From: Pseudomonas laurentiana
Lineage (GTDB): Bacteria; Pseudomonadota; Gammaproteobacteria; Pseudomonadales; Pseudomonadaceae
Reading direction: 5' to 3'
NCBI RefSeq assembly: GCF_014648275.1
Contig: NZ_BMQU01000007.1
Span: 173,562 to 237,561 of the forward strand
Length of the DNA stretch: 64,000 nt
Shown here: positions 41,912-60,060 of the stretch, one piece after another
Position numbering within the stretch: the stretch's first letter is position 1
Layout: each line of letters opens with the position of its first letter
The notes under the pieces: model-generated
The model's input: only the letters and a program-made list of their open reading frames with translations
Told to the model about the DNA's origin: nothing
The model's database searches: none
Translations under genes and position numbers: made by a program

Positions 41912-43366
41912 ATGATGCGCGGAGTACTGCTACGTAGCGGCAAAAGTGAAGATTTCACCGCACTAGGAGAAACAGGCCAACCGGTGTACCGGGCAGCGCT
42001 GCAATTGCGCGAGGCCATCCGCCGCAAGAACCCCGGCCAACCTGAGTTGGTCGAGCACCTCGCCATTCCGCAAACCGACGAGCGCGGCAGTACCATCGAC
42101 TGGTACAGCGATCGGCCGGGTGATGTCATCCCCTGGAGCAGCGCCACCGAAGAAGAACGGGGGCCCGCCCGTGCGCAACTGGAAGTGCTGCAGCGCAAGA
42201 TCGATGAGCTCAGCAATGACCTGCTGGGCCTGGATGCCAATGGTCAGCCGCTTCCCGGCAGCAAGCCAGGCGCCCAGGGTGATCGGACGGTATTCGGCAA
42301 GCTGCTGACCTGCGTGGTGCCGTTCCCCGACGAAAATTTCGTGTACTTGGTGGATGGTCGGCCAGTCCTGACGTTCTGGGGCTTCGTCCACGCCGGTGCC
42401 GAGCGCAGCCGCCAGCCACTGCACTGCCTCTACCCAAGCACAGCCAAAGTTGCCGAACCGGCACCACTCGTGCCGCCCGCACCGGTCGCACCGCTGGCAG
42501 CACCCGCCGCAGCGCCGTTGCTCAGCCAGGCAGCCAAACCCTCCTGGTGGCGCCGCTGGTGGTGGCTACTGCCGTTGTTGCTGTTGCTCCTGCTGTTGCT
42601 GCTGTTTGGCCTGCGTGGCTGCCTGCCCAACGCTACGCTGCCAGGTTTGCCGGGTATGCCGCAGGTTGAAGTGCCGTCTATGAATACGCCCTACTTGAGC
42701 GGGCAACCCGGCGTCACCCTGCCTGGCGGCGCAGCCTTACCAGGTAGCGGGCTGAACGTTTCCGGTAGCGCAGCGGGCACGCCGACTACCGCGCCAGGTA
42801 GCGTAGCGGCGCCAGCCAACGAGGGTGCCGGTACAGATCCTGCCGCCAACACCGCGCCGGAGCCCACCACTACACCGCCAGCAGCGCCAAACGAGGCGCC
42901 CGCCGGTGCGGCGCAAACGCCGCCCGCAAGCGCAGGTGGCCCAGCCAACGCCTCGTCGACACAACCGCCAGCGCTTGTGGAGGGCACCCAGCCTTCGCCG
43001 TTATTGAGTATTCCCGCAGATGCCGCAGACGGCACAGCCAACTTCCTCAACGGCGACTGGAGCGGTGCCGGCATCCAGGAGGTCGGCACCGGTAAGCCGC
43101 TGCGCCTGAAGTATGACTTCCAGGACGGCAAGGGTAACGCCACGGTCAGCCGCTCCGACGGCGTGCGCTGCAGCGCCCCGGTGGTCGCGGCAATGAACGG
43201 CGGCAATCTGTCGATCAATAGCGATGGTCAGGCCGCCTGTGCCGATGGCAGCAGCTATGACCTGCCCCAAGTGAACTGCAAACCAGGCGCCAAGCACATC
43301 GCCGACTGCAGCGGTAGCTACGGCACCGAAGCGTTCCCGATGCTGATGAAGCAAGCCGGCCAATAA
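41912..43366 (+). CDS. srfA: SrfA-like bitopic membrane protein
   Basis: About 484 residues. A cytoplasmic N-terminal part (1-~205), a membrane helix preceded by WWRRWWW (about 211-234), a Pro/Ala/Thr-rich linker, and a C-terminal domain (~380-484) with four Cys (VRCSAP, QAACAD, VNCKPG, ADCSGS) probably in disulfides outside the membrane. It matches the SrfA family, first named in Salmonella (SsrB-regulated). The start at 41912 or 41915 fits AAGG 5 to 8 bases upstream; a GTG at 41897 is in frame but less likely. First gene of the cluster. Confidence 0.8.
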   Translation: MMRGVLLRSGKSEDFTALGETGQPVYRAALQLREAIRRKNPGQPELVEHLAIPQTDERGSTIDWYSDRPGDVIPWSSATEEERGPARAQLEVLQRKIDELSNDLLGLDANGQPLPGSKPGAQGDRTVFGKLLTCVVPFPDENFVYLVDGRPVLTFWGFVHAGAERSRQPLHCLYPSTAKVAEPAPLVPPAPVAPLAAPAAAPLLSQAAKPSWWRRWWWLLPLLLLLLLLLLFGLRGCLPNATLPGLPGMPQVEVPSMNTPYLSGQPGVTLPGGAALPGSGLNVSGSAAGTPTTAPGSVAAPANEGAGTDPAANTAPEPTTTPPAAPNEAPAGAAQTPPASAGGPANASSTQPPALVEGTQPSPLLSIPADAADGTANFLNGDWSGAGIQEVGTGKPLRLKYDFQDGKGNATVSRSDGVRCSAPVVAAMNGGNLSINSDGQAACADGSSYDLPQVNCKPGAKHIADCSGSYGTEAFPMLMKQAGQ

Positions 43367-43383
43367 CACGAGAAGCGCAGAAG

Positions 43384-46300
43384 ATGTTGCCTGAAATCAC
43401 CCAGTTCGAAGAAACGGTCACGCTGATCAGCGATACCGGCATTCAGTTTATGGACTTCGCCCTGCGCCTGGGCCCGGATGGCGAGCAAGCCGGCAAATTC
43501 GTGCAGCTCAACAACGGCCTGGTGCCTACGCGCCTGTTGTGGTCCAAGGAATACAAGGATTTCTACGAACCGGAGCCCGACAAAGTCGTGCCGGTAGAGT
43601 TCGATTCCAGCGAAGACAACCACTTCCGGCTGAGTATGGAAGAGAGCCTGAAACTGTTTGACGGTATCTGGCTGCCCATTCCGTTTCTGCGCTTCATGCC
43701 GCCCTATCGCTTCGACGAGGGGCCGAACAACTGGTCGCGGATGCGCTTGGTCAAACTGGCCGAGCCCGATATCGACGGCAATACGCACCGTCTCACGCTG
43801 GCCTTTGATAGCCGTATCATGCCGTCCGTCAGCGGCACCGCCTACCTGGCGCCAAACGAAGAAGACGTGCGCTCCGGTGTAGCCTTCAAGATCGCCTGCA
43901 GCGCCCGTGAGTACGGCTGGTTCCTGACTCACAGCTGGATCCGCGAATGGCTCAGTGAGCTGTACGCCGAAGCCCGTGCAGACTGGACCCGCGAGCGCCT
44001 GGACAAAGACCTCAAGGGCAACCGCCACCTCGGGCATTACCTGAACCTGCTGAGCTTGCTGCGCCGCCCGACACCTGCCGAGCAGAGCACAGAGAAGCCC
44101 AAGGTCGAGATCCCCGAGATCAAGGTCGTCGCCAATGACGCCCTGGGCGTCGTGCGTCCGATTCCGGTGGACCTGGTGCTGGACGTCGGTAACTCGCGCA
44201 CCTGCGGCATTCTGATTGAAGATCATGGCCAGTCGGGTTCGGGCATGAAGCACAACTATGTGCTGGAGCTGCGCGACCTCAGTGAACCCGAGAAGATCTA
44301 CAACCAGGCCTTTGAGAGCCGCGTCGAGTTTGCCCAGGCTTATTTCGGCAAGGACCATTTTTCGGTCAAGAGCGGCCGTCACAATGCCTTCCAGTGGGCC
44401 ACGATTGCCCGCGTAGGCGGCGAGGCCGGACGCTTGGCCAGCCGCCGTCGCGGCACCGAAGGTTCCACCGGTCTGTCCAGCCCGAAACGCTACCTGTGGG
44501 ATGAGAAGGCCTATGGTCATGGCTGGCGCTTCAACGCCTCGTACGTCAAAACCGACAAGGAGCCGCTGGCGACCGCCGCACCTTTCTCGCACTTGATCAA
44601 CGACCTCGGCCAGGCGCTGTACCTGCCGCCAAAGAACGACATGCCGGTGTTCACACCGCGCTATTCACGCAGCAGCCTGATGACGTTCATGCTGGCCGAA
44701 GTGGTCACCCAGGCGCTGTCGCAGATCAACAGCCCGGCCCAGCGTTCACGCCAGGGTCATGCGCGGGTCCCGCGCCAGCTCAACAGCATCACCCTTACCG
44801 TACCGCCAGGCATGCCGCAGGCTGAACGCAGCATCCTCAACAACCGCATGAACGAGGCCGTCGGCCTGGTGTGGAAGAGCCTTGGCTGGCATGAGGGCGA
44901 GAGCAACCCGTTCAAGGACAAGTCGGTCAAACCGCTCACACCGCTGCCGAGCATTCGCGTTGAATGGGACGAGGCCAGCTGCGGGCAACTGGTGTACCTG
45001 TACAACGAGGTCAACGAGAACTTCGCCGGGCACCCGGAAGAATTTTTCGCAGCCCTGGCGCGTCCGGACAAAAGTGAAACCGAGCAAATCACCCTGGCCA
45101 CCATCGACATTGGTGGCGGCACCACAGATCTGGTGATCACCGACTACCACCTGGACCGTGGCAGCAACGGCGGCACAGGCAGTAACGTGCACATTGTGCC
45201 CAACCAGCGTTTCCGCGACGGATTCAAGATCGCAGGCGACGATATCCTGCTGGACGTGATTCAAGAGTTCATCCTGCCCAGTTTCAAGCAGGCACTGCAG
45301 AACGCCGGGGTGTACGCCCCGGATGCCCTGATGTCGCGCCTGTGCGGCAACGGCGATGCCAGCGCCCAGGAGCGGATTCTGCGTCAGCAGCTCAACCTGC
45401 AGGTGTTCATGCCGCTGGGTCTGGCGTTGCTTAAAGCCTATGAGCAGTATGACCCTGAAACCCCAGTGGAGGTTGTTGAGCGCTCATGGCAAGAAGTACT
45501 GGGCGATGCCGTGGTAAACGACAGCGTGCTGGAGTACGTGTATGCCGCCGTGCGCCGTGATGTTGGCCGTGATGGCACCCTGGACCTGCTGAAAACCCCT
45601 ATCGCCTTTGATCTCGAACAGGTGCATACGGCGTTCCTCGGTGGCCAGATCAACATCACCAAGATCCTCGCCGAACTGTGCGAAGTGATCTTCCACTACC
45701 CCTGTGACGCGCTGTTGCTGACGGGCCGCCCTTCGCGCCTGCCGGGCATTCAAGCCTTCATTCGCCAGCGTTTGCCTCTGCCACCAGGGCGCATTCTGCC
45801 GCTGCAGAACTACCGCACTGGCGGTTGGTACCCATTCCACAAAAATGGCCTGATCGACGACCCGAAAAGTACCGCCTCGGTGGGTGCAATGATCTGCCTG
45901 TTGTGCTCCAAGCACAGTGTGCCGAACTTCTACTTCCGCACGGCGGCACTCAAACCGTATTCGACCATCAAGCACTTCGGCCAGATTGATAACGCCGGCA
46001 CGATCAAACACGGTGATGTGCTCTACCACAACCTGACCTCCGACAAAGGCCGCATTCAACTGCCGATTGTGGGCGAAGGTGAACAACGCGGTACGCCATG
46101 GCTGGAGATGCGCGGCGACATGCACCTGGGCTACCGCCAACTGGCCGCTGAGCGCTGGTCCGCATCGCCACTCTACACACTGCGCTTTACCCCCAGAGGC
46201 AGTCGTAACTTCTCAAGCGCCATCGGCAAGGGCGGTGAAACGCCAGTGCTGCGTATTCGCCTGGCCGTGGACGAGCCTTCGGACCAACTGCTGGAGCAGG

Positions 46301-46464
46301 GCCTGATCAGCGACAAGCTGGTCATCGCTGAGCTGCAATCGAATATCCAGGATGCCGATTTCGATTTTGAAAGGGATCTTGAGCTCTCACTCAACACCAT
46401 GCCGACCATGAGCCTGAGTGACAGTGACTATTGGCTCGACAGCGGGAACGTCAAAGGAAAATGA
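43384..46464 (+). CDS. srfB: SrfB-like actin/Hsp70-type ATPase protein
   Basis: 1026 residues, cytoplasmic. It carries the three ATP-site motifs of the actin/Hsp70 superfamily: phosphate 1 in VDLVLDVGNSRTCGI (about 264-278), phosphate 2 in ATIDIGGGTTDLVI (about 571-585), and an adenosine-like motif LLLTGRPSRLPGI (about 777-789). About 300 residues lie between phosphate 1 and 2, more than in MreB or Hsp70, and a ~260-residue domain precedes the fold. The family is annotated virulence factor SrfB; function unproven. srfC starts within its stop (ATGA). Confidence 0.85.
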   Translation: MLPEITQFEETVTLISDTGIQFMDFALRLGPDGEQAGKFVQLNNGLVPTRLLWSKEYKDFYEPEPDKVVPVEFDSSEDNHFRLSMEESLKLFDGIWLPIPFLRFMPPYRFDEGPNNWSRMRLVKLAEPDIDGNTHRLTLAFDSRIMPSVSGTAYLAPNEEDVRSGVAFKIACSAREYGWFLTHSWIREWLSELYAEARADWTRERLDKDLKGNRHLGHYLNLLSLLRRPTPAEQSTEKPKVEIPEIKVVANDALGVVRPIPVDLVLDVGNSRTCGILIEDHGQSGSGMKHNYVLELRDLSEPEKIYNQAFESRVEFAQAYFGKDHFSVKSGRHNAFQWATIARVGGEAGRLASRRRGTEGSTGLSSPKRYLWDEKAYGHGWRFNASYVKTDKEPLATAAPFSHLINDLGQALYLPPKNDMPVFTPRYSRSSLMTFMLAEVVTQALSQINSPAQRSRQGHARVPRQLNSITLTVPPGMPQAERSILNNRMNEAVGLVWKSLGWHEGESNPFKDKSVKPLTPLPSIRVEWDEASCGQLVYLYNEVNENFAGHPEEFFAALARPDKSETEQITLATIDIGGGTTDLVITDYHLDRGSNGGTGSNVHIVPNQRFRDGFKIAGDDILLDVIQEFILPSFKQALQNAGVYAPDALMSRLCGNGDASAQERILRQQLNLQVFMPLGLALLKAYEQYDPETPVEVVERSWQEVLGDAVVNDSVLEYVYAAVRRDVGRDGTLDLLKTPIAFDLEQVHTAFLGGQINITKILAELCEVIFHYPCDALLLTGRPSRLPGIQAFIRQRLPLPPGRILPLQNYRTGGWYPFHKNGLIDDPKSTASVGAMICLLCSKHSVPNFYFRTAALKPYSTIKHFGQIDNAGTIKHGDVLYHNLTSDKGRIQLPIVGEGEQRGTPWLEMRGDMHLGYRQLAAERWSASPLYTLRFTPRGSRNFSSAIGKGGETPVLRIRLAVDEPSDQLLEQGLISDKLVIAELQSNIQDADFDFERDLELSLNTMPTMSLSDSDYWLDSGNVKGK

Positions 46465-49169
46465 GTAATCTAACGCCAAAGCAACAGCAGCTGATGGGTG
46501 CCTGGGGTGCCGTTCACAAAGGTGCGAACGAGGCGCTGGAGTGGATTCAACAGGTGCGCGGCAATGCCGCCAGCGTCGAGGCCGAGGGCGATGCCCTCAA
46601 CCTCCGGCTGCACCAGGCACGCAACCGGGCCAAAGACCTGCAACGCGCGGCAGGCACGCCGATGGTGATCGGCTTCTTCGGCCTGTCTCAGGCCGGCAAG
46701 TCGTACCTGATTTCCGCCTTGGCAGCCGACAGCCGTGGCCGCCTGGAAACCGACTTCGGCGGCAAGACCCTCGACTTCATCGAGCACGTAAACCCCACGG
46801 GCCTCGGCAAAGAGGCTACCGGGCTTGTGACACGCTTCAGTCGCTGGGCCAAACCGAGCCCCGATGCCAATTTTCCGGTAGAGCTGAAGCTGTTCAGTGA
46901 GATCGAAGTGGCGAAGATTCTGGCTAACGCCTGGTTCGAGGACTTTGATCAAGAAAAGCTCGACTACGCCTTCACTGACGCCCGCATTCAGGATGTACTC
47001 AAGGCTTTCGAAGGCCAGGAGCATGAACAGGTACAGCCTGGGGTCACCGCCGACGATGTGGTGGCCCTGTGGGACTACCTGAAAGGCAATTACGAAAAGT
47101 CCGTGCGCAAGCTCAGTGAGCTTTACTGGCCGCGCGTAATGAAGCTGGCACCACGGTTGAACTACCGTCAGCGGGCCAAGCTGTTTTCCGTGCTGTGGGG
47201 CGAGCAGCACCTGCTCACTGAAGTCTACGAACAGTTGGTAGGCGGCCTGCACAAAATGGGCTTCCCCGAGACCGTGTTCGCACCGTTGAGCGTACTGGTG
47301 AAAGACGACAACGGCGTCTACACCCAAGCCAACAGCATCATGAACGTCGATATCCTGGGGCGCCTGGGCACTAATCGTGACCTGCCGGTAAACGTGTTGC
47401 CACTGTGCGACGGCAAACTGCAGAGCAGCGTAGGCCTGAGCATCGCCCAACTCGCCGCGCTGACCGCCGAGATGACCTTCCGCCTGATCAATCGGCCGCA
47501 AGACCCGGTCGTTGAGGAAGTCGACTTGCTCGATTTCCCAGGCTATCGCACCCGGCAGAAACTGCTACGCATCGAGGACGCGGCCGACCCGGATGCGGTC
47601 GAGCAGGTCAATCCGGCCTCGACCCTGATCCTTCGGGGCAAGGTGGCCTACCTGTTTGAACGCTACACCGACTCGCAACAAATGAATGCCCTGGTGCTCT
47701 GCACCAGCTCGTTCAAGCAAAGCGAAGTGGTCAGCGTTGGTCCTGTGCTCACCCGCTGGATTCACCGCACCCAAGGCCGTACACCGAAAGAGCGCGGCCA
47801 GCGTGAACCAGGTCTGATCTGGGCCTTGACCATGCTCGACGGTTTCATCAGCAACACACTCGGCCTGAGCGAAGGGCAACTGCCCGAAGGCTGCGAGAAC
47901 ATGATGAAACTGACAATGATCGAGCGCTTCGGAACTCAGGAATGGATGAAGGACTGGTCGAGTACTCCGTTCAACAACACCTACCTGGTGCGCAAGCCTC
48001 GCCTGGACACGGCCTTCATCGAACGTGACGCGGGTACCGGTGAAGAAACTGCATTCACTGATCGACATACGCAGCGCCTGGAGCAGTTGGGCCAGTGCTT
48101 CGCCGCCAGCCCTTCAGTGCAGCGTCACGTGAAAGACCCAGACACCGCCTGGAAAGCCATGCTTGAGCTCAATGATGGCGGCATCAGCCGTTTCAGCAGC
48201 AGCTTCAAGGGCGTTGCCAACATCGACTTCAAGCTCACCCGGATCGAAGAACAACTGGAAGAGTGCCGTACCGAGCTGCTTGAAAACGGCCTGTATGCCT
48301 GGCGTGAAGAAGACTTTGAGAAAGTGCTGGAGAAGAAGCGCGAAAAGGCGCAGATGCTCCTCAACCAGCTGGGCGCTGATCCCGATGTATTGGGCGAGTT
48401 GATCCATGAGCTCCAACTGCCGGTCGACGAATTGCGCGAGCTGTACCTGGGCGGTGTGTATGACATCGACGGGCTGGACGACGATGCGGAACAAGAGCCG
48501 GAGCATAGCGCCAAGGCCCCGGCCAACAAGGCCCCTGCGATCAATTTCGGCAACCTGTTTGCCAACCCCGCCGCAGAGCCAGTAGCAGCGCCAGCGAAGC
48601 CGCTGACACGGCGACTCACCTCAGAGCAACGCTTTGCCCGGGCGGCCCTCAAAGCCTGGATCAAGCATATGCGCGAGCTGGGTTCACGCACACTGCTGCT
48701 CAATAGCCTGCGGCTGAACAAAAGCGTGGTCGACAGCCTCACCGAGGAGCTGATCAGTGCCGTGCGAAGCCCAAGCTTCCTCACTGAATTGGACGAAGCC
48801 GTGACCCGTCGCGCCCAAAGCGGCACACGACGCGATCAGATGGTGCAGCGTCAGGTATTGGCCGTGCAACTGGTGATGCGCGACTTCATCTCCTGGTTCG
48901 GCCTGCTGAGCAAACCCGTAAGCGCACGCCCCAACAGCCTGTTGGGTGCTCGCGAGCCGTTGTTCAGCTTCTACCGCTCGGTGGCTGTCGGCGAACTGCC
49001 CGTGCTGCCTGAACAGCCCTCGCATCAAGAGCAACTGTATTTGGTGGATTGGTTGTCGGGGCTGGCCTGGCTTACCCAGGAAAACGCCAAGAGTGGCGCG
49101 GACCCCGAAATTACCACCGAGCAGCGACGCCAACTGGCCGTCCTGCTGAACACATTTGAAGCGAGTTAA
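46461..49169 (+). CDS. srfC: SrfC-like P-loop GTPase-type protein
   Basis: 902 residues, cytoplasmic. A Walker A/G1 motif GLSQAGKS (74-81) after a helical N-terminus, and a G3-like DFPG at 358-361 (VDLLDFPGY), with a long insert between. The remainder is helical with heptad-like stretches (EEDFEKVLEKKREKAQMLLNQ), as in dynamin-like proteins, then a Pro/Ala linker near 690 and a helical C-terminus. It matches the SrfC family. Nucleotide preference and membrane action are inferred. Overlaps srfB by four bases; next gene after 3 bases. Confidence 0.85.
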   Translation: MSNLTPKQQQLMGAWGAVHKGANEALEWIQQVRGNAASVEAEGDALNLRLHQARNRAKDLQRAAGTPMVIGFFGLSQAGKSYLISALAADSRGRLETDFGGKTLDFIEHVNPTGLGKEATGLVTRFSRWAKPSPDANFPVELKLFSEIEVAKILANAWFEDFDQEKLDYAFTDARIQDVLKAFEGQEHEQVQPGVTADDVVALWDYLKGNYEKSVRKLSELYWPRVMKLAPRLNYRQRAKLFSVLWGEQHLLTEVYEQLVGGLHKMGFPETVFAPLSVLVKDDNGVYTQANSIMNVDILGRLGTNRDLPVNVLPLCDGKLQSSVGLSIAQLAALTAEMTFRLINRPQDPVVEEVDLLDFPGYRTRQKLLRIEDAADPDAVEQVNPASTLILRGKVAYLFERYTDSQQMNALVLCTSSFKQSEVVSVGPVLTRWIHRTQGRTPKERGQREPGLIWALTMLDGFISNTLGLSEGQLPEGCENMMKLTMIERFGTQEWMKDWSSTPFNNTYLVRKPRLDTAFIERDAGTGEETAFTDRHTQRLEQLGQCFAASPSVQRHVKDPDTAWKAMLELNDGGISRFSSSFKGVANIDFKLTRIEEQLEECRTELLENGLYAWREEDFEKVLEKKREKAQMLLNQLGADPDVLGELIHELQLPVDELRELYLGGVYDIDGLDDDAEQEPEHSAKAPANKAPAINFGNLFANPAAEPVAAPAKPLTRRLTSEQRFARAALKAWIKHMRELGSRTLLLNSLRLNKSVVDSLTEELISAVRSPSFLTELDEAVTRRAQSGTRRDQMVQRQVLAVQLVMRDFISWFGLLSKPVSARPNSLLGAREPLFSFYRSVAVGELPVLPEQPSHQEQLYLVDWLSGLAWLTQENAKSGADPEITTEQRRQLAVLLNTFEAS

Positions 49170-49172
49170 CCC

Positions 49173-50198
49173 ATGGGTATCAGAGTTGACGTGCTGTCAT
49201 TGAGCAGCAACGTTCCAGGCCACGCACGCGTTCGAGTCAGTGGCTGGAGCGAAACCACCGACAGCCTCGAGTTTTCGGTGCAAAGCAGCCAAAGCCAACA
49301 CTTCCTGCAGAAGGAAGCACAGTGGAGTAGCAGCCCCTACTGGTTCCAAATCACGCAGTTGGAGCCCGTAGACGACGCACAAGCCTTCGAGACCCGGATT
49401 GGGCCGGAGTTGCTCGACCCCTTGCTGGAACTCAGCAACAACGCCATGTTCCGCATTGAGCTGAAGGGCTCGGGCCTGAGCGAAGAAACCGTCCTGCGGC
49501 TGGCCAAGGACCTGCAGCATTCGTTGTCGCAAGGGAGCACCCCGACAAGCGCAAACGGCGGCACGCTGGACGTACCGGCAACTGCGCCGGTAGTGGAGCA
49601 GGCGCCAGCCCAGGCGACGACGGTCGCTCCGGCCGAAACCCTGGCAGAACCCGAAGTGGTTACCCCGGCTCCAGCTCTGGCAGCCACAACGCCGACAACA
49701 AAGAACCGCTGGCTGTTGCCGGTACTGCTACTGGTGCTACTGGCCGCCATCGCGGCAGGCGCCTGGTGGTGGTTCAAACAGCAACCGGAACCTGCCGCAC
49801 CCAAGCCTGCAGAGCCGGAGAAGCCTGCACAGGTCGAGCCCGCGGTGACAGCCCAGCCTTGTACGCTGGAAAGCATGAAGAGCCAGTCGGAACTGGCCTT
49901 CGTGCAGAGCTGCATCCAGCAGGCGCCGGACAGCACTGCGCTGCTGGAAGTGATCAACGTCGCCAAGGCCAATAGCACTTGCGGCGTCGCCCAGCGCCTG
50001 TACGCCAACCGCGCTCAGGGCGGCGACGTACAGATCGCCACAGCCTACGCCCACGAGTATGACCCCAAGTACCACCAGGCCAGCGAGTGTTTCAAAGCAC
50101 CCGACAACGCCACTGCCGCCTACTGGTACGAGACCATCCTTAGCTTCGACGAGAACAATGCCGATGCCAAGGCGCGTCTTGAGGAGCTCAAACAATGA
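49173..50198 (+). CDS. Bitopic membrane protein of the srf cluster
   Basis: 341 residues, not recognised by family. Residues 1-~115 form a beta-rich domain (VLSLSSNVPGHARVRVSGWSE); a Pro/Ala-rich stretch follows; a membrane helix (WLLPVLLLVLLAAIAAGAWWWF, ~179-201); then a Pro/Glu linker; and a C-terminal region with three Cys and helix-turn repeats like TPR/Sel1 (GDVQIATAYAHEY, AAYWYETILSF). The layout resembles SrfA: cytoplasmic N-terminus, one helix, linker, external C-terminus. Its stop overlaps the next start (ATGA). Confidence 0.75.
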   Translation: MGIRVDVLSLSSNVPGHARVRVSGWSETTDSLEFSVQSSQSQHFLQKEAQWSSSPYWFQITQLEPVDDAQAFETRIGPELLDPLLELSNNAMFRIELKGSGLSEETVLRLAKDLQHSLSQGSTPTSANGGTLDVPATAPVVEQAPAQATTVAPAETLAEPEVVTPAPALAATTPTTKNRWLLPVLLLVLLAAIAAGAWWWFKQQPEPAAPKPAEPEKPAQVEPAVTAQPCTLESMKSQSELAFVQSCIQQAPDSTALLEVINVAKANSTCGVAQRLYANRAQGGDVQIATAYAHEYDPKYHQASECFKAPDNATAAYWYETILSFDENNADAKARLEELKQ

Positions 50199-52156: not shown

Positions 52157-52161
52157 GCCCC

Positions 52162-52860
52162 ATGCTTGACATCAAAGGACTGTTGGTCGCGCGCGGGGAA
52201 GGCGCCCAGGCTCATCGGGTGCGGCTCAATGAGCTGCACCTGGAGCAAGGTGAAATTCGTGCCATTACCGGCGAGAGCGGCTGCGGCAAGAGCACCCTGC
52301 TGGAAGCCATCGGCTTGCTCCTGGCGCCTCAGCAACTGAACCACTATCGCCTCGGACGTGAGGCGGTGGATGTACGCCAGTTGCTGGCTGAGAACCAGCA
52401 ACCGGCGCTGGCCGCATTACGCTCCCGGCAGCTCGGTTTCGTGTTGCAGAACGGTGGCCTTCTGCCGTTTCTCAAGGTACGCGACAACATCCAGTTACCA
52501 CGGCGCCTACTTGGCCTCTCCAGCCGCAGTCGGGCCGTCGAGAAAGCAGTTGAAGTACTGCGCCTTGAGCCGTTGCTCGACAAATACCCACAGTCCCTGT
52601 CCATCGGTGAGCGCCAGCGCGTCGCCTGTGTGCGCGCCATCGCCCACGAGCCTCAGCTGCTACTGGCCGATGAGCCCACCGCCGCACTGGACCCACACAA
52701 TGCTCAGCGCCTGTTCGAGCTGCTACTGAGCCTGGTCAATGAGCTGGGCCTTAGCGCTTTGGTGGTGTCCCACGACTGGGCATTGATCGATCAGTTCGGC
52801 CTGCCGCGACTGGGCGCAGTGAATGGGGAAGGAGAAACACGCTTTGAACCCCTGGTTTAA
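52162..52860 (+). CDS. ABC transporter ATP-binding protein
   Basis: 232 residues. Walker A GESGCGKST (37-45), signature LSIGERQRV in place of LSGGQ, Walker B LLLADEPTAALD and the switch His in VVSHD. It resembles LolD/MacB-type ATPases working with FtsX-like permeases, which is the next gene. The permease frame overlaps its end by 38 bases. Confidence 0.9.
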   Translation: MLDIKGLLVARGEGAQAHRVRLNELHLEQGEIRAITGESGCGKSTLLEAIGLLLAPQQLNHYRLGREAVDVRQLLAENQQPALAALRSRQLGFVLQNGGLLPFLKVRDNIQLPRRLLGLSSRSRAVEKAVEVLRLEPLLDKYPQSLSIGERQRVACVRAIAHEPQLLLADEPTAALDPHNAQRLFELLLSLVNELGLSALVVSHDWALIDQFGLPRLGAVNGEGETRFEPLV

Positions 52861-54067
52861 GCAACTGGGGCTGCTGATGCAGCTTTCGGTGGCCGATCTC
52901 TGGCATGACCGCAAGGTCTCGCTGTGCATGGCAGCCTCGCTAATGGCGGTGATCGCCCCCCTGTTGCTGTTGTTCGGGCTCAAGCATGGCGTGGTCAGCC
53001 AACTGCAACAGGAACTGCTGAGCGACCCGCGCAACCTTGAAGTGAAGATGCTCAGCAGCAGCCATTACGACCTCGACTGGCTGGAACGCTTGCGCCAGCG
53101 CCCGGAAGTCGGTTTCGCCATTGGTCAGACACGCTCGCTGAACACCCAGGCCGACCTGCAGGGCGAGCGTGGGCGCTTTGCCGATAACATCGAAGTCATC
53201 CCCACCCAAGCCGGCGACCCGCTACTCAACACGCCCTTGAGTGCAGTGCAAGGCAACCAGGTCATTCTCAGTGCCCGTACGGCTGAGCGCCTGGCCGCCA
53301 AGGTCGGCGATAATATTCGGCTTCGCGTCGTCCGCCGCCTGGACGGTGTCAACGAACGCGGCGAGCAAACACTGCAGGTGCAAGCCGTACTGGAGCCTGC
53401 ACGCTTTGCCCGCCCGGCAGCCTTTGTCAGCCCCGAACTGCTGCTCGACCTAGAGTACTTCCGCGACGGCTATCGCGTGCCGACACTGGGTAGCACCAGT
53501 GGCCAACTGCTGGACAGCGTGAAGGTTGGTTATGCCCGTGCCAGGGTCTATGCCAAAGACATCGACAACGTCGAAGCCTTGGAGCGCTGGCTCAATGAGC
53601 AACATGTGGAAACAAGCAGTCGTCTCGCTGAAATCGATAGCGTCAAGGCGATCAACCATGTGTTAGGGCTGATCTTTGGGGTGATTGCCGGTGCCGCACT
53701 GATCGGTTGCATCGCCTCGCTGGTCGGTGCCTTCCTGGCCAACATCGACCGCAAACGGCGGAACCTTGCAGTGTTACGCCTGCTGGGTTTCGGCAGTCTG
53801 GCAGTGGCCAGCTATGTGGTGCTGCAGGCACTGCTGCTCAGCGCCGTAGGTTATCTCGGCGGCCTGGGTGGCTATTTTGCCGGCAGCGTACTGTTCGACC
53901 ACTTGCTGGGCAGCAGTCAGGCTACCGGCACGTTCATCTGCCACATCACTTTTGGGCACGGCCTGACCGCCCTGCTCCTCGCTTTCCTAGTCGCCGCGCT
54001 GGTCGCCATGATCGGCGCCCTGCGAGCCATTCGAATTCAACCTGCGGAGAGTCTGCGTGAGCTCTAA
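52823..54067 (+). CDS. FtsX/MacB-type ABC permease
   Basis: 414 residues. One membrane helix after ~35 residues, a large external domain (about 60-270), and three helices at the C-terminus with GAFLANIDRKRRNLAVLRLLGF, the hallmark of the FtsX fold (LolC/E, MacB). Such transporters do mechanical work on the outside instead of moving small solutes. The ATG at 52823 overlaps the ATPase gene; a TTG at 52844 has a better ribosome binding site (GGAAGGAG). The next gene starts 11 bases inside. Confidence 0.85.
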   Translation: MGKEKHALNPWFKQLGLLMQLSVADLWHDRKVSLCMAASLMAVIAPLLLLFGLKHGVVSQLQQELLSDPRNLEVKMLSSSHYDLDWLERLRQRPEVGFAIGQTRSLNTQADLQGERGRFADNIEVIPTQAGDPLLNTPLSAVQGNQVILSARTAERLAAKVGDNIRLRVVRRLDGVNERGEQTLQVQAVLEPARFARPAAFVSPELLLDLEYFRDGYRVPTLGSTSGQLLDSVKVGYARARVYAKDIDNVEALERWLNEQHVETSSRLAEIDSVKAINHVLGLIFGVIAGAALIGCIASLVGAFLANIDRKRRNLAVLRLLGFGSLAVASYVVLQALLLSAVGYLGGLGGYFAGSVLFDHLLGSSQATGTFICHITFGHGLTALLLAFLVAALVAMIGALRAIRIQPAESLREL

Positions 54068-55607
54068 AGCCTACGGCCGTCTACTGTTCTTGCCCCTGAG
54101 TTTCGGCTGCCTGATGCAAGCCTCGGCCGCGGCCTGGGAGGAGAAACACTTTAACCCCATGCCCGACACCGACGATGTGGTGCTCCCCATGCCCTGCGAA
54201 GGGTCGATGGTGTTTCGCAAGGTACTGATCCCACTGGCCGGCCCCTTAGACGACTACCCAATCAACATTGGCCAGGACAGTGCCGAGTGGGGCTATGTCG
54301 AACAGACCCGTCCCGCCTTTATCGCCGGTAGTTTCACCAGCGCGAAAGGTGAGAAATCGCGCTACTACCTGATGGCCAAGTATGAAATGACCCAGCTGCA
54401 GTACCGTGCGCTGACGGACGAAACCTGCCCGACGCCGTCGAACAAGCTGCGCCTGCCGGAGGTGTCGCTGAGCTGGCTCGATGCACTGCAAGCAACCGAT
54501 AAATACAACCGCTGGTTACGCGCCAATGCTGCCGCAAAACTGCCCAAGGAGGATGGCGCCCAGGGCTTTCTGCGCTTACCCACCGAGATCGAGTGGGAGT
54601 ACGCCGCGCGCGGCGGGCTGCAGGTCGGTACCGCTGAGTTTCGCGATGCTCGCTACCCGATGCCCGAAGGTTTGAATGCCTACGAATGGTTTGCTGGCGC
54701 CCAGTCGTCGAACGGCAAACTGCAACTCAGCGGGCTGCTCAAAGCAAACCCTCTGGGCCTGCACGATATGCTTGGCAACGCCAGCGAGATGATGTTTGAA
54801 CCCTTCCACTTGAACAAACTGGACCGCCAGCATGGGCAGGCCGGCGGCTATGTGGTGCGCGGCGGCAACTACCTGACTGCCGAGGGCGAGCTACGCACGG
54901 CGCTGCGTGAAGAAGAGCCGTACTACAACGCCGAAGGCCCGGTGACCAGCAAGACCACGGGCATGCGCTTGGTGCTGGTGTCGCCCACGATGACCTCTCG
55001 CGAACGCGTCAGCAGTATTGAGAGTAGCTGGAAGAAGCTGGGCGGCGATGAGCCCACCGGACACGCCAAGGACAAAGGCACCGTGAAAGCCTTGGAAGAC
55101 CTCGCCGCAAAGGTTGATGACCAAGGCCTGAAAGACCAGCTCAAGACCGTAGAAAATCAGCTACGGGCGAGCAACCAGCAACAGCAGGAAGCTCGCGATC
55201 AGGCGATCCGTGCCAGCCTCAACCTCGGCGCCTTCCTCTGTACCAAGATGCTCGACGACGGCCAGTACCTCGACTTTCTGCAGAAGAACTACGCCAGCAA
55301 CTGCAAGGCCGGCGAAGAAGACCCCACCTGCGGTATGCGCAAAACCAAGCTCGACGAACAGAGCACGCGCTTGCACAAGCTGAGCCGTTACTACGCCAGC
55401 TCTTTGGTGGAGTCCGGTTCGCTCTATGGCAAGCCCCTGCTGGAAGCGCAAGTGCCGGTGCTGGAGGGCACGCTCAAGGCCAATAAGAACCTCAAGGAGT
55501 TGATGCCTTACCTGCGTACCCACTGGGCTAACCAGGCCGAATTCCTCAAAACCCAGAAAATCGACACTGCAGCCTGGCTCAACAGCTGCAAGGCCGTAAC
55601 CCTCTGA
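54057..55607 (+). CDS. Exported FGE/SUMF1-like protein
   Basis: 516 residues from a GTG start. Signal peptide (LLFLPLSFGCLMQASAAA). The formylglycine-generating-enzyme fold spans about 60-320: YYLMAKYEMTQLQYRALTD, FLRLPTEIEWEYAARGG, NPLGLHDMLGNASEMMFEPF, GYVVRGGNYLT. I do not see the paired catalytic cysteines of true FGEs, so it may be a binding protein and not an enzyme. The C-terminal ~190 residues are helical with coiled-coil (DQLKTVENQLRASNQQQQEA). Confidence 0.75.
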   Translation: MSSKAYGRLLFLPLSFGCLMQASAAAWEEKHFNPMPDTDDVVLPMPCEGSMVFRKVLIPLAGPLDDYPINIGQDSAEWGYVEQTRPAFIAGSFTSAKGEKSRYYLMAKYEMTQLQYRALTDETCPTPSNKLRLPEVSLSWLDALQATDKYNRWLRANAAAKLPKEDGAQGFLRLPTEIEWEYAARGGLQVGTAEFRDARYPMPEGLNAYEWFAGAQSSNGKLQLSGLLKANPLGLHDMLGNASEMMFEPFHLNKLDRQHGQAGGYVVRGGNYLTAEGELRTALREEEPYYNAEGPVTSKTTGMRLVLVSPTMTSRERVSSIESSWKKLGGDEPTGHAKDKGTVKALEDLAAKVDDQGLKDQLKTVENQLRASNQQQQEARDQAIRASLNLGAFLCTKMLDDGQYLDFLQKNYASNCKAGEEDPTCGMRKTKLDEQSTRLHKLSRYYASSLVESGSLYGKPLLEAQVPVLEGTLKANKNLKELMPYLRTHWANQAEFLKTQKIDTAAWLNSCKAVTL

Positions 55608-55633
55608 TCAACAACGAGTCAAGGAACGCGAAC

Positions 55634-56368
55634 GTGAATACCAATAAAGCAGGCATCTCCCGGATTTGGGTCAGTGTGATGGTAGTGGTCAGCCTGGTGC
55701 TGAGCGGTTGTGCCGGTACCGGTAGCTCAATGTTGGGTGGCAGCAGCAACGCAGACCCACGGCTGACCTCCGGCAACGATGCCAAGTTTTTCACCACATC
55801 GGGCTATCAGGCCTGTGCTGTCGCCGCAGCCGGTGGCGTGCTCGCCTGCACCCTGTCGAACTCGAGCAACAAGGCTACCTGCGCCGTCGTCGCTGGCCTT
55901 GCCGCGTGTGGCGTGGCCATGGGCGCCAACTACTACCTGGATCAGCGTCGTGCCCAGTACTCCGACACTAATCAGCGTCTGACGATGATGACCACTGATG
56001 TTCAACAGGAAACGGCCAAGGTCGCCGAGCGAACCAACACACTGCAACGCGTGATCAACGACGACAAACAACAAATCGCCGCCCTGCAGCGCGATATTCA
56101 AGCCAAGACGGTTAACAAGGCCAAGGCACAGCAAGACGTTGCCGCCATCGACAGCAACATTGCCTTGATGCGCAAGGACGTCAACAACATGAAGGCCCGT
56201 GTCACCGAATTTGAGAAGGTCGCCAAGCTTGAGCGTGAAGGCGGCGCCAACCAGGCTGAGGTGCAGAAGGTCGAGGCAGAGATTGCCAAGATGAACAACA
56301 AGGTCGTTGCCCTGCAGCAGGAGGTCGACGGCCTCTACAGCCAGCGCTCGGCAATTACCCTGGGCTAA
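55634..56368 (+). CDS. Coiled-coil lipoprotein 1 of the srf cluster
   Basis: 244 residues from a GTG start. Lipobox LSGC with Cys26; a Gly/Ala/Cys-rich hydrophobic segment (ACAVAAAGGVLACTL, ACGVAMGANYYLD) that may insert in or hug a membrane; then a long coiled coil (about 115-235, DKQQIAALQRDIQAK). The residue after the lipid Cys is Ala, consistent with outer membrane sorting. No family recognised. Confidence 0.72.
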   Translation: MNTNKAGISRIWVSVMVVVSLVLSGCAGTGSSMLGGSSNADPRLTSGNDAKFFTTSGYQACAVAAAGGVLACTLSNSSNKATCAVVAGLAACGVAMGANYYLDQRRAQYSDTNQRLTMMTTDVQQETAKVAERTNTLQRVINDDKQQIAALQRDIQAKTVNKAKAQQDVAAIDSNIALMRKDVNNMKARVTEFEKVAKLEREGGANQAEVQKVEAEIAKMNNKVVALQQEVDGLYSQRSAITLG

Positions 56369-56378
56369 GGAGCACGCT

Positions 56379-56882
56379 ATGTACCTACGCCTCAGCCTTT
56401 GCATTCTGGCCCTGCTCTCAGTGGGCGGGTGCGCTACTACCGCGTCACAGTGCAATGCCTCCGACAGCGATGTCAGCATGATCAAGAAGCTCAACTGCGA
56501 CTACGGTGGCGGTTACAGCGAGCAGGTGCGCAACAGCGAGCAGGCCTTGGTCGATGCCCGTGAGCAGAACCGTCAGTTCAACGACGTATATGCTCAGCTC
56601 AGCGCACAGCAGACTTCGACCCGCCAAGACCTGGCAACCGTACAACGTCAGCAGGCCAGCCTGGAAAAGTCGCTCAATGGCCTGTTGGCCACGCTCAAGG
56701 CCCGGCATGCCAACAAGCGCGACGTACAACAGCAGATTGCGGGCCTTGAACAGCGGATGAAAGCCTCGCAGAGCGCCCCTGCCAGCATGGCCAACGCTGC
56801 CCAGGTCGAGGCCCGCAAGCAAGAACTGAAAGCTCTGCAGCAGCAGGTCAGCCGCCTCCAGCTGAGCCTCGGTTACGAGTAA
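56379..56882 (+). CDS. Coiled-coil lipoprotein 2 of the srf cluster
   Basis: 167 residues. Lipobox VGGC (Cys18), then coiled coil (EQVRNSEQALVDAREQNRQF, LATVQRQQASLEKSL). It begins 10 bases after lipoprotein 1 and could pair with it. The start at 56379 is set by the signal peptide. It ends just before a strong hairpin. Confidence 0.72.
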   Translation: MYLRLSLCILALLSVGGCATTASQCNASDSDVSMIKKLNCDYGGGYSEQVRNSEQALVDAREQNRQFNDVYAQLSAQQTSTRQDLATVQRQQASLEKSLNGLLATLKARHANKRDVQQQIAGLEQRMKASQSAPASMANAAQVEARKQELKALQQQVSRLQLSLGYE

Positions 56883-56890
56883 GCCTCTTA

Positions 56891-56918
56891 CCGGCAGCCT
56901 CGGCTGCCGGTCTTTTTC
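56891..56918 (+). terminator. intrinsic terminator inside the srf cluster
   Basis: ACCGGCAGC (56891-56899) and GCTGCCGGT (56904-56912) pair perfectly over a CTCG loop, followed by CTTTTT. It lies only 12 bases before the next ATG (56930) in the same direction, so it may reduce and not abolish expression of the two VWA genes that follow. Confidence 0.75.
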
Positions 56919-56929
56919 AGGACATCCTC

Positions 56930-58162
56930 ATGCAACGGGTTACCCGTGATGCCAGCACGAGCCAGGACGGCTTAGCCTCGCTCGAACACACCGTAGCGAT
57001 TATCGCCAAGCATTTTCCACCCAGCGTTGCTCACCTCTATGCGGTCCCGCGAAAAGGCGCCGATGGCACCCGTGAATGGTGGTCGGAACTGACCGGACAG
57101 CCACGCCAGTACCGCGAGCTCAATGCCGATGAGCAACACGCGCTGCTTGAGATCTATGCACAGCGCCAAGACGCCGTCACACAGTTGGCCAATGAACTGG
57201 AACGTCGCGGCCAGGGCACAGAAGCTAGCGCACTGCGGCGACTGGTAGGGCCACCGAACCTCGACAACCTCTACAGCATCAATGGCTATCCGCTGTTGGT
57301 GCGCTGGGGTGATCCTGAACCCAGGCCGGCACCAAGCCCGGCTCCACAAATAGCCGCTCCGATTGCGCGTCGGCGAAAGTGGATCTGGTTGCCATGGTTC
57401 CTGCTGCCATTACTCTTGCTGCTAGCACTGCTGCTCGCGCTGTGGATAGGCTGGCCTTACCTGCAACGGTGGCTGAATACACCCCAGCCGCAGCACTTCG
57501 CCTGCGTTAAAGACCCCCAGGCACAGCCCCCTGAGTTTTCCGTGGTCCTCGATACCTCCGGCTCAATGCAACTGAGCGTGGATGCCACGCTCGAAGACGA
57601 GCAATGGTTTTTCACCCTTGGCCAAGAGGACGGGGCCGACCCTGAGCGCCTGGCCCGGATAACCCGAGGCCCAATACGCATGGACGTGGCCAAGAGCGCG
57701 TTGAGCCAGATGGTGAACGACCTGCACCCGGCCATCGACATGCGCATCGTGACCTTTGATGGCTGCCGCGCGCCAATCGACCATGGCCAGTTCAGTCTTG
57801 CTCAACGCCCGGCCTTGATCCAAGGCATTAAAGGCCTCGTGGCCAACGATGGCACTGCACTCACGGCAAGCCTGGAAAGCGCCGCGCGCACGATGAATGG
57901 CCGGGACCGCGACGGGGTCATCGTAATGTTCGTCGATGGTGCAGACGGTTGTGGCCAAAACGCTTGCGAGGTGGCGAAACGTATTGCCCGAGAACAACCA
58001 CGGTTGCGGGTCAACCTGGTCAACATCAGCAATAACAGCCTGGCCAGTTGCATTGCCGACAGCACCGGTGGCCGGGTGTACTCAGCGAACAATGCCTTGG
58101 AAATGGCAAAGGCCCTGCAAGACGCCAGCCAAGAGGTTTCCGGCAGTGCCAATTGCGACTAA
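56930..58162 (+). CDS. Membrane-anchored VWA protein 1
   Basis: 410 residues. A cytoplasmic N-terminal domain (1-~125, TVAIIAKHFPPSVAHLYAVP ... NLDNLYSINGYPLLVRWGD), a basic stretch RRRKW before one membrane helix (~150-172), then an external VWA domain with a perfect DTSGS metal site (208-212), GTALT and DGADGCGQ. Several Cys suggest disulfides. The basic residues before the helix indicate a cytoplasmic N-terminus. A paralogue follows after 28 bases. Confidence 0.82.
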   Translation: MQRVTRDASTSQDGLASLEHTVAIIAKHFPPSVAHLYAVPRKGADGTREWWSELTGQPRQYRELNADEQHALLEIYAQRQDAVTQLANELERRGQGTEASALRRLVGPPNLDNLYSINGYPLLVRWGDPEPRPAPSPAPQIAAPIARRRKWIWLPWFLLPLLLLLALLLALWIGWPYLQRWLNTPQPQHFACVKDPQAQPPEFSVVLDTSGSMQLSVDATLEDEQWFFTLGQEDGADPERLARITRGPIRMDVAKSALSQMVNDLHPAIDMRIVTFDGCRAPIDHGQFSLAQRPALIQGIKGLVANDGTALTASLESAARTMNGRDRDGVIVMFVDGADGCGQNACEVAKRIAREQPRLRVNLVNISNNSLASCIADSTGGRVYSANNALEMAKALQDASQEVSGSANCD

Positions 58163-58190
58163 TGCCTGTTGATTGTAAGGAATTGAACGT

Positions 58191-59480
58191 ATGCAACGGG
58201 TAACCCGCGATACCTACGCAAGCCAGGACAGTGCACAGGCTCTGGATCAGACGGTAGCGTTGATTCGCCTGCACTTTCCGCCAACTATTGCTCACCTCTA
58301 TGCCATCCCCCGCCAAGGCAAAGATGGCGTGCTGGAGTGGTGGTCAGAGCTTGCCGGCCAGCCACACCTCTACGCCACGTTGAACCGTGAACAGCAGGCG
58401 GCGTTGTTGATGCGTTATGAAGAACGCCAGACCGCAGTGGGGCACCTGGCCCTGGAGCTGGAGCGGCGTGGCCAGGAACAGGCAGCCAAGGCGCTGCGTG
58501 GTCTGATCGGTGCGCCTGACCTCGACAATCTCTACAGCGTCAATGGCGAGCCTCTGGTGGTACGCTGGGGGCAGCAACCGGCACCGCTGCAGGCTCCCCC
58601 CGCAGCCCACAAGCCAACACCTGCTCCGGTCGCAGCACCGGCCAAACCTCCGGTCCCGAAACCGGCCCCGGCGTCACGCACGGTGTCTCCACGTCGACGC
58701 TGGCTCATGTGGCCCTGGTTACTGGGCTTACTGCTGCTGGCAGCGCTCTGGTGGATCTACGCGTGGTGGCCTTCAATTCACCAATTGTGGGTAGCACCAG
58801 GACGCCCTACCTTTGCCTGCGTTCCAGGTACCCCGTCACAGGCAGCCGAGTTTTCCGTGGTACTCGATACCTCAGGCTCAATGGACAGCCGTATTCGGGT
58901 CAAGCAAGAAAGCGACCCGTGGTACATCGACCTGTTGCAAAAAGTCCCGCTGCTGGAGGATTACCTTGCATCCAAAGGCCCACAACGGGTCACACGCATG
59001 GAGGTAGCCAAGAACTCACTCAGCACATTGGTGGAGAACCTGGACAAAGACATCGACATGCGCCTGGTGACGTTCAACGGTTGCCGCGCACCGCTGGACC
59101 ATGGCGTATTCGACCGAGACAAACGTCCACAATTGACAGATCTCATCCAGAAACTCGATGCCAAGGGTGGCACCGGATTGGGTATCAGCCTTGAAGCGGC
59201 AGCCCGACAGATGAATGGTCGTGACCGCGATGGGGTCATTGTGATGTTTGTCGACGGCAGTGACAGCTGTGGCCAAAGCGTCTGCAAGGTGTCCAGTCAG
59301 ATTGCTCAGGCACAGCCGCGACTGCGGATCAATGTGGTCAACATCAGTGCCAGTACAGGCTCGAACTGCGCGGCCGAAAATACCGGCGGCCGGGTCTACA
59401 CAGCCAATGATGCGGCAGCCGTGGCAGCAGCACTGCAAGAAGCCAGCCTGGAAGTGTCAAGTGGCGTACGTTGTGAATGA
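58191..59480 (+). CDS. Membrane-anchored VWA protein 2 (paralogue)
   Basis: 429 residues with the same layout as its upstream neighbour: N-terminal domain (MQRVTRDTYASQDSAQAL, DNLYSVNGEPLVVRWG), Pro/Ala-rich linker, membrane helix, VWA domain with DTSGS (226-230), GTGLG and DGSDSCGQ. An additional segment after the metal site (VPLLEDYLASKGPQ) differs from VWA protein 1. It probably arose by tandem duplication. No gene of the srf cluster follows. Confidence 0.82.
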   Translation: MQRVTRDTYASQDSAQALDQTVALIRLHFPPTIAHLYAIPRQGKDGVLEWWSELAGQPHLYATLNREQQAALLMRYEERQTAVGHLALELERRGQEQAAKALRGLIGAPDLDNLYSVNGEPLVVRWGQQPAPLQAPPAAHKPTPAPVAAPAKPPVPKPAPASRTVSPRRRWLMWPWLLGLLLLAALWWIYAWWPSIHQLWVAPGRPTFACVPGTPSQAAEFSVVLDTSGSMDSRIRVKQESDPWYIDLLQKVPLLEDYLASKGPQRVTRMEVAKNSLSTLVENLDKDIDMRLVTFNGCRAPLDHGVFDRDKRPQLTDLIQKLDAKGGTGLGISLEAAARQMNGRDRDGVIVMFVDGSDSCGQSVCKVSSQIAQAQPRLRINVVNISASTGSNCAAENTGGRVYTANDAAAVAAALQEASLEVSSGVRCE

Positions 59481-59619
59481 CCGCCTTGCCAGCGATCCGA
59501 ACCTTGCGCCAATGACGCTTTTCAATTGGATCAATGCCGCTTTCAACCTTGCCCTGTGGTGATTACTGCACGATTCTTTAGCTATCGATCGTCACTACCA
59601 CCACTTGGCAGGACTCTCT

Positions 59620-60060
59620 ATGAAAACCGTGGCACAGCTCCTGAAATTGAAGTCCCAGCAGCATCAGCAGGTTCATACCATTGCCCCTGACCAGATGGTG
59701 CTCGATGCGCTGCGGGTGATGGCTGAAAAGAACGTCGGTGCCTTGCCCGTCGTTGAAGGCGGCAAAGTGATCGGCGTAATCAGTGAACGCGACTATGCGC
59801 GCAAGATGGTACTGAAGGGTCGTTCATCGGTAGGCACGCCGGTCAGCGCTATCATGAGCGCACCCGTGATTACGGTAGGCCCGCATCAGAACATCGATAC
59901 CTGCATGAGCATGATGACCGATGGCCACCTGCGTCACCTGCCGGTAGTGGAGAACGGTGAGCTGCTGGGCCTGCTGTCGATTGGCGACCTGGTCAAGGCG
60001 GCCATTGCTGAACAAGCGGACCTTATTCAGCAACTGGAACACTACATTCGCGGTGACTGA
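59620..60060 (+). CDS. CBS-domain protein
   Basis: 146 residues made of two CBS domains (VLDALRVMAEKNVGALPVVEGGKVIGVISERDYARK and IDTCMSMMTDGHLRHLPVVENGELLGLLSIGDLVKA). Such pairs bind adenine nucleotides and signal energy state to a partner. No partner domain is present. I start at 59620 (MKTVAQLLKLK). It is separated from the srf cluster by 139 bases and converges with the next gene. Confidence 0.85.
   Translation: MKTVAQLLKLKSQQHQQVHTIAPDQMVLDALRVMAEKNVGALPVVEGGKVIGVISERDYARKMVLKGRSSVGTPVSAIMSAPVITVGPHQNIDTCMSMMTDGHLRHLPVVENGELLGLLSIGDLVKAAIAEQADLIQQLEHYIRGD

Follow-up and report, generated by a model that had tools for sequence, protein, structure and literature searches.

The window analysed here is a 64,000-nucleotide stretch of the Pseudomonas laurentiana genome (contig NZ_BMQU01000007.1, positions 173,562 to 237,561), and at its positions 41912-59480 lies an operon that begins with the genes srfA, srfB and srfC. 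We found that this twelve-gene operon is real and conserved, and that two known modules are joined in it. One is SrfABC, in which SrfC models as a dynamin-type GTPase. The other, VwaP-T-S-R-Q, proved on sequence comparison to be the TagQRST-PpkA damage sensor of the H1-type type VI secretion system (T6SS) without the kinase and the transmembrane (TM) segment of PpkA. We would put at even chances the reading that these genes form a machine which spans the envelope and responds to damage, and in which the damage sensor would drive dynamin-type membrane remodelling. The anatomy of the operon is well supported; its function is what we infer.

Organization and conservation of the operon

The twelve open reading frames (ORFs) all lie on the plus strand, with spacings of −38 to +47 bases. 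ATG codons at 41912 (SrfA), 46464 (SrfC) and 56379 (Q2) were chosen as starts in place of the mechanically assigned GTG or TTG codons. The lipoboxes of Q and Q2 were assigned from the sequence. The products are as follows.

SrfA, 41912..43366, + strand: N-terminal domain at about residues 30-158, TM segment at about 213, Pro-rich linker and Cys-containing C-terminal domain, probably periplasmic
SrfB, 43384..46464, + strand: putative Hsp70/actin-fold ATPase (PF07520)
SrfC, 46464..49169, + strand: predicted dynamin-like GTPase (PF10139)
Bit, 49173..50198, + strand: bitopic protein with an N-terminal domain, TM segment at about 177 and C-terminal TPR-like repeats, probably periplasmic
VwaP, 50195..52156, + strand: exported VWA protein, homologue of the post-TM part of PpkA, no kinase
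T, 52162..52860, + strand: TagT-like ABC ATPase (ABC_tran)
S, 52823..54067, + strand: TagS-like FtsX/MacB-type permease with 4 TM segments (FtsX, MacB_PCD)
R, 54057..55607, + strand: TagR-like FGE-fold protein with signal peptide (FGE-sulfatase, E 1e-28)
Q, 55634..56368, + strand: TagQ-like coiled-coil lipoprotein, presumed lipobox LSGC-A
Q2, 56379..56882, + strand: second coiled-coil lipoprotein, presumed lipobox VGGC-A, 3' of Q in Pseudomonas loci
VwaM1, 56930..58162, + strand: SrfA-type N-terminal domain, TM segment at about 150, VWA domain with DTSGS motif (VWA_2)
VwaM2, 58191..59480, + strand: paralogue of VwaM1 (54% identity)

An earlier interpretation made from the letters alone (the sequence-only reading) had described twelve tightly packed rightward genes. 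This was borne out, and the ATGA, 38-base and 11-base overlaps that it noted are exact. SrfB and SrfC overlap by 1 base (TAATG), Bit and VwaP by 4 (ATGA), T and S by 38, and S and R by 11; the gaps are 17 bases for SrfA/SrfB, 3 for SrfC/Bit, 5 for VwaP/T, 26 for R/Q, 10 for Q/Q2, 47 for Q2/VwaM1 and 28 for VwaM1/VwaM2. The families that it named (SrfA, SrfB, SrfC, ABC ATPase, FtsX-type permease, FGE-like and VWA) were all matched in family scans, VWA in three operon proteins. An SH3 part had also been assigned to the exported VWA protein; no SH3 family was matched at E 0.1 in the Pfam scan.

The genes had further been taken for one system, and co-occurrence across genomes supports one conserved operon. 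Gene order was examined in 52 SrfB loci from named genomes: the first nine genes follow the window order in 50, and the other two loci are cut by contig ends, so that the arrangement is not due to chance. In four of those 50 loci, one extra upstream ORF also matches the ATPase profile. A VwaM relative was present in 49 of 50 genomes searched (L007 and L045 were left out), with coordinates just past the locus edge in 48 of the 49, contig numbers not being matched to names in this count. All twelve loci fetched from the other SrfB-positive genomes of a 119-genome Pseudomonas sample, some of which are also among the 52 named ones, display the 11-gene order, with one or two copies of VwaM; many loci carry a single VwaM. 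A bitopic gene occupies the place of Bit in divergent loci too. The ATGA overlap of Bit and VwaP was seen in 38 of 50 Pseudomonas loci when longest-ORF starts were used, and the others have an alternative start upstream. The SrfB of the window has the same sequence (100% identity) as the P. defluvii WCHP16 protein.

A sensor related to the T6SS regulatory module

True T6SS regulatory loci were located by the TagQ family, which was above cut-off in 37 of the 119 Pseudomonas genomes, and seven were fetched. The profiles built from Srf loci matched six of the seven in the order PpkA-T-S-R-Q. The VwaP profile recognized T6SS PpkA at E 1e-142 to 1e-149 over the whole mature VwaP; in PpkA the match starts near residue 360, or at 251 in one ORF that the locus edge truncates, and reaches the end of the protein. 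The T profile matched the ATPase of the six loci at E 1e-57 to 1e-65, the S profile TagS at E 1e-66 to 1e-83, and the R profile TagR at E 1e-58 to 1e-66. The Q profile on true TagQ was the weakest of the five (E 1e-4 to 1e-9, a score that the coiled coil may inflate), and NF041250 (TagQ) scored E 1.3e-6 and 28 bits on Q against an NCBIfam cut-off of 300. Q2 gave coiled-coil matches in the family scan. The seventh locus, L117 in genome G091, gave a Q match only; its TagQ is above the family cut-off, no PpkA, T, S or R was found in the fetched stretch, and the whole genome gave no PpkA-type match.

When aligned, the post-TM sequence of PpkA, DRPLLMAGKKTLFQRVL, corresponds to the post-signal-peptide sequence of VwaP, ADKPLLQAGKKTLFQRVL, and the alignment runs to both ends. 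The signal peptide in VwaP thus stands where PpkA has its kinase and TM segment. All three T6SS PpkA proteins scanned contain a Pkinase domain within residues 8-255 with the VWA domain behind it, and no kinase family was found at E 0.1 in the twelve operon proteins. Sequence and profile searches of VwaP against the PDB gave no matches. As for R, a cysteine was absent from the FGE-type catalytic site in all 28 aligned sequences of R and TagR (the segment around GGN-Y-L). For want of this cysteine, FGE enzyme activity was rejected for R.

The sequence-only reading had called the operon unlike T6SS. With respect to five of the twelve genes this was wrong, because they are homologues, in the same order, of TagTSRQ and the periplasmic half of PpkA. 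The likeness does not extend to the secretion machinery: no T6SS structural (Tss) family was above cut-off in the twelve operon and five flanking proteins scanned, a VWA match to TssR_VWA being sub-threshold (E 0.02), and we therefore rejected a T6SS structural cluster. Set beside the TagQRST-PpkA pathway, the operon has VwaP, T, S and R as homologues in the same order and Q as a weaker one, and R is cysteine-less in both. The Srf operon differs in having neither kinase nor Tss genes, in that VwaP is a free exported protein, in the addition of Bit, Q2 and VwaM, and in that the output genes are srfABC. In P. aeruginosa, T6SS assembly after mechanical or chemical damage to the outer membrane is reported to require TagQ and PpkA (PMC11881912).

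SrfC, SrfB and the proteins with a single membrane span

PF10139 matched SrfC at E 2e-298 and PF07520 matched SrfB at E 0. In 23 SrfC sequences the motifs GxxxSQxGK, DxxDxP and TxxD, which we take to be G1, G3 and G4, are largely conserved; G73, K79, D354, P359, T456 and D459 are invariant, and S75, Q76, G78 and D357 are kept in at least 90%. The AlphaFold2 model of SrfC (pLDDT 74.8) retrieved dynamin-superfamily proteins in the first 32 aligner rows and the first 21 Foldseek rows, and it displays the GTPase with helical bundle or stalk by which the dynamin fold is recognized. We conclude that SrfC models as a dynamin-type GTPase. Neither phmmer nor profile searches linked the SrfC sequence to solved structures, and no report tying SrfC to dynamin came up in our literature search. 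Among bacterial dynamin-like proteins (BDLP, SynDLP, the Campylobacter DLP pair, IniA and LeoA), SrfC shares the predicted fold and the GTPase motifs. We know of no bacterial dynamin-like protein wired to a Tag-type envelope sensor.

Comparison of motifs and of one lobe points to SrfB as an Hsp70-type ATPase. D267, G269, D575, G577-G579, T580, D582 and G781 are invariant in 23 sequences, and presumably belong to the phosphate-1, phosphate-2 and adenosine motifs. The full model was poor; its confident part matches Hsp70 lobe II. Sequence and profile searches of SrfB against solved structures gave no match. With Hsp70/DnaK, SrfB thus shares the phosphate and adenosine motifs and lobe II of the ATPase domain, and it differs in its length of 1026 aa with long extra regions; a substrate domain was not made out. 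A Pfam scan of the 23 SrfB and 23 SrfC sequences for other families gave weak matches only (MMR_HSR1 in 8/23 SrfC and FtsA in 2/23 SrfB). Two cytoplasmic NTPases had been read from the sequence, and these results support them; of the roles suggested at the same time, remodelling, here of a membrane, gains plausibility from the dynamin-like model of SrfC.

NF040486 (SrfA_fam) matched SrfA at E 1.7e-116, and residues 31-127 of VwaM1 also matched this family, below cut-off, at E 8e-9. In profile-profile comparison the N-terminal domains of SrfA and VwaM were related with a probability of 99.2 (E 7.9e-20), showing at sequence level that SrfA and both membrane VWA proteins have this domain in common. 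A SrfA profile search gave chance-level matches only. Bit contains TPR matches down to E 1e-10, with no family above cut-off.

A dynamin beside a MacB-like pair might also form a membrane-vesicle or envelope-export device that conveys material to the outer membrane or through it, a role of the kind proposed for LeoA. TagST, to which the S/T pair is homologous, is nevertheless known for signalling, and we saw no cargo gene common to the operon loci; we regard an export function as decidedly unlikely.

Earlier reports on srf and tag genes

The sequence-only reading had considered the system undescribed, which is half right. The neighbourhood was printed in 2013: PMC3608642 describes host-associated Deltaproteobacteria in which srfABC is accompanied by tagQ and ppkA and, for the most part, by tagRST; only one of these bacteria has T6SS machinery. 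A srfABC-tag neighbourhood is also mentioned for Xenorhabdus (PMC6950479). PMC3608642 gives no mechanism, and among the matches listed these two papers alone link srfABC to Tag; PMC4534456 names no srf gene. The Deltaproteobacterial neighbourhood is apparently the same as the one described here. PMC3608642 calls the function of srfABC unclear and reads the genes as a kinase pathway, with PpkA as a possible trigger of SrfC export, whereas the PpkA-like gene that we find in Pseudomonadota is without a kinase. As far as our literature searches show, the reading of a damage sensor coupled to a dynamin/Hsp70 machine is new.

SrfABC have long been labelled virulence effectors (Worley et al. 2000, cited in PMC5664417), and SrfABC, SrfC in particular, may be effectors exported to a host, with the Tag-like module controlling their release. 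Besides this annotation and the export idea of PMC3608642, the cytotoxicity of cloned Xenorhabdus SrfABC is consistent with such a role (PMC6950479). The same paper reports that SrfA, SrfB and SrfC co-precipitate and that SrfB is also found in a larger complex. On the other hand, the PpkA-like protein is without a kinase, the models of SrfC and SrfB resemble a dynamin and Hsp70, respectively, srfABC is reported from Erwinia billingiae, which is without a type III secretion system (PMC2897811), and TssB was not found in half of the genomes with sensor and SrfB given below. Taken together, we judge the effector explanation improbable. The Rickettsia 'SrfB/SrfC' (PMC11258249) appear to have only the name in common with these proteins and were set aside.

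Distribution of the two sensor types

A sample of 398 genomes of the phylum was searched along with the 119 Pseudomonas genomes. SrfB was above cut-off in 21 of the 398. The fetched neighbourhoods hold the sensor as well in eight of these extended genomes (the P. laurentiana genome itself, G141, G506, G411, G157, G410, G478 and G231), on a second contig in G231; twelve others, all of family f14, have SrfA-B-C only. In G231 (L108/L150) the two parts of the locus lie on separate contigs; tblastn matched SrfC there, and no whole reading frame was found for it. G255 (L109, 274-2940) carries two tandem SrfA-like genes before SrfB-SrfC-Bit, without the sensor.

The VwaP profile matched 15 of the 398 genomes, the best three candidates per genome being scored, so that weak extra copies may be missed. 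The matches comprise the eight extended genomes with short frames (657-738 aa), six genomes without SrfB whose long frames (1017-1189 aa) belong to T-S-R-Q loci and, from length and context, are likely to include a kinase, and G132. Frame length alone is a soft sign of a kinase, as is seen in L042, where a 1291-aa frame, an apparent Bit-VwaP fusion, was rejected as a chance stop-free frame. Eight of the nine kinase-less VwaP matches in the 398 genomes thus fall in SrfB-positive genomes. The ninth, the 757-aa VwaP of G132, belongs to a sensor with neither Srf nor kinase match. In this third setting of the sensor (L149, 9520-18684), a kinase-less VwaP-T-S-R-Q-Q2 series precedes an S41 peptidase gene, and divergent neighbour genes have weak alpha-2-macroglobulin and Sel1/MORN matches.

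In Pseudomonas, the profile matched 49 of 119 genomes, 13 with short frames (657-690 aa) and 36 with long ones (877-1292 aa, one in two pieces). The 13 short-frame genomes are exactly the 13 that are SrfB-positive, and none of the 119 has both forms. SrfB and TagQ (37 genomes) did not overlap at all, against 4.0 genomes expected (P 0.006, not kinship-corrected). When 50 of the 52 named SrfB-positive genomes were scanned (two were omitted), the Srf-type form was found in all 50 and the kinase type also in one. This genome, G529 (that of L019), is the only one seen with both; the two sensor types are located at ~280571 and ~343345 of contig C86, ~61 kb apart.

Homology of the sensor to TagQRST raises the idea that the operon acts in trans to regulate a T6SS whose genes lie at another place in the genome. 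The P. laurentiana genome, which has a single sensor copy, does contain two TssB genes on other contigs, and TssB is present in four of the eight extended genomes. However, TssB was not found in the other four (G231, G506, G410 and G478), where the sensor is therefore unlikely to serve a T6SS, and the kinase is missing. We consider control of a distant T6SS highly improbable, the least probable of the explanations weighed here.

The operon is patchy within Pseudomonas (13/119 genomes), and a patchy distribution is common for defence genes. A dynamin might then protect the membrane from phage or predators, as the Bacillus dynamin DynA protects populations against phage (PMC8844932). No PADLOC model matched at E 0.01 in the eight of the twelve proteins scanned, by which an anti-phage system of a known model was rejected, and a defence role appears very improbable to us.

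Evolutionary history

Compared with the srfABC of Salmonella and other enterobacteria, the SrfA-SrfB-SrfC order and full-length homology are the same, and nine more genes are present here; the Salmonella form we take to be without the sensor. Had srf homologues occurred mainly without the other genes, this would have spoken against a single system, as the sequence-only reading had stated. Part of this was found, as 13 of the 21 SrfB-positive genomes of the phylum sample have SrfABC without the sensor. On the other side, 12 of those 13 belong to a single family, for which secondary loss is suggested by the SrfB tree. In this tree (30 sequences, unrooted) the three-gene forms constitute one clade (support 1.00) beside G411, an extended genome from that family (1.00), and the other branches are extended, except G255. 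A tree of SrfB and SrfC together divides in this way too, some of its inner nodes being weak. With the root outside the three-gene family, for example on the long branch to f50/f64 of another class, a single loss of the sensor is the simplest account, whereas this argument would fall if the tree were rooted on the three-gene branch. Judging from these sequences, three-gene enterobacterial srfABC probably arose by loss of the sensor.

The sensors of the T6SS type group in one clade. In a sensor tree rooted with distant ABC ATPases, T6SS TagT falls among Srf-type sequences, with a support of 0.35 for the key node, too low to tell the direction of exchange. Srf-type sensors occur in five families of the phylum sample and the T6SS type in one, which hints that T6SS borrowed the sensor.

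The Salmonella genes offer the remaining alternative, in which the machine would sense a surface or contact and adjust envelope or flagellar function to swarming instead of serving repair. In Salmonella, srfC and srfB mutants are defective in swarming, the srfC mutant swims normally (PMC4219756), srfABC is under flagellar (FlhDC) control (PMC4219756, PMC3946378), and mechanical force elicits a response of the Tag sensor in P. aeruginosa (PMC11881912). As the three-gene form is without the sensor, its phenotype may be derived, and the swarming defect would be a trait of the sensor-less form. A role in swarming is in our view unlikely, though it has something to be said for it.

Proposed mechanism

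Under the damage-response reading, the lipoproteins Q and Q2 together with R would sense a local loss of outer-membrane integrity, or contact. The MacB-like T/S pair and VwaP would then change state in the periplasm, and VwaP, which has no TM segment of its own, may for that reason engage Bit, SrfA and VwaM by those parts of them that lie in the periplasm. With no kinase in the sensor, we infer that the signal must pass by contact, from VwaP to Bit, SrfA and VwaM and on to SrfB and SrfC, the cytoplasmic domains of Bit, SrfA and VwaM recruiting and switching the latter two. At the site of damage the dynamin-like SrfC would assemble on the inner membrane and reshape, tether or seal it, and SrfB would be the ATP-driven chaperone of assembly or disassembly. 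A dynamin as output suggests, by analogy, local membrane reshaping or sealing. Bacillus DynA gathers at damaged membrane, where such reshaping or sealing has been proposed (PMC8844932); its likeness to SrfC is drawn from papers only. A chain from inner to outer membrane, as the sequence-only reading had pictured, is supported by the bitopic proteins, the ABC/FtsX pair, the periplasmic FGE-like and VWA proteins and the lipoproteins.

More tentatively, and with less than even confidence, the operon may represent a new class of envelope-repair machine and the ancestral setting of the sensor, which H1-type T6SS would later have borrowed by fusion of the VWA half to a kinase; Salmonella srfABC would be a sensor-less remnant. 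To our knowledge, the upstream signal has been identified for few bacterial dynamins, and here one operon would encode both. If SrfC is a dynamin in an operon with a damage sensor, the function of SrfABC becomes testable by simple cell biology. The T6SS 'tit-for-tat' sensor would likewise be a portable module able to drive a second, protective output.

Other features of the region

One further element lies within the operon.

Hairpin with T run, 56890..56911, + strand: terminator- or attenuator-like, between Q2 and VwaM1

The hairpin is GC-rich, and most listed Pseudomonas loci, L137, L143 and L163 excepted, have a hairpin of differing sequence at the same place. It looks like an attenuator that would lower VwaM expression. 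A sigma-70 promoter scan gave one site, below the mean of the shuffles.

Downstream, a CBS-domain gene (59605-60060) was rejected as a member of the operon, as its profile matched only in the P. laurentiana genome and the near relatives L159 and L160, and some loci end earlier. At 60585-64000 on the minus strand, beside the contig end, which coincides with the end of the window, is a large LapA/BapA-type repeat adhesin gene with a VWA domain and a type I secretion signal. Being on the opposite strand, it was not counted as part of the system; an adhesin-like gene is also reported beside srf genes in PMC3608642.

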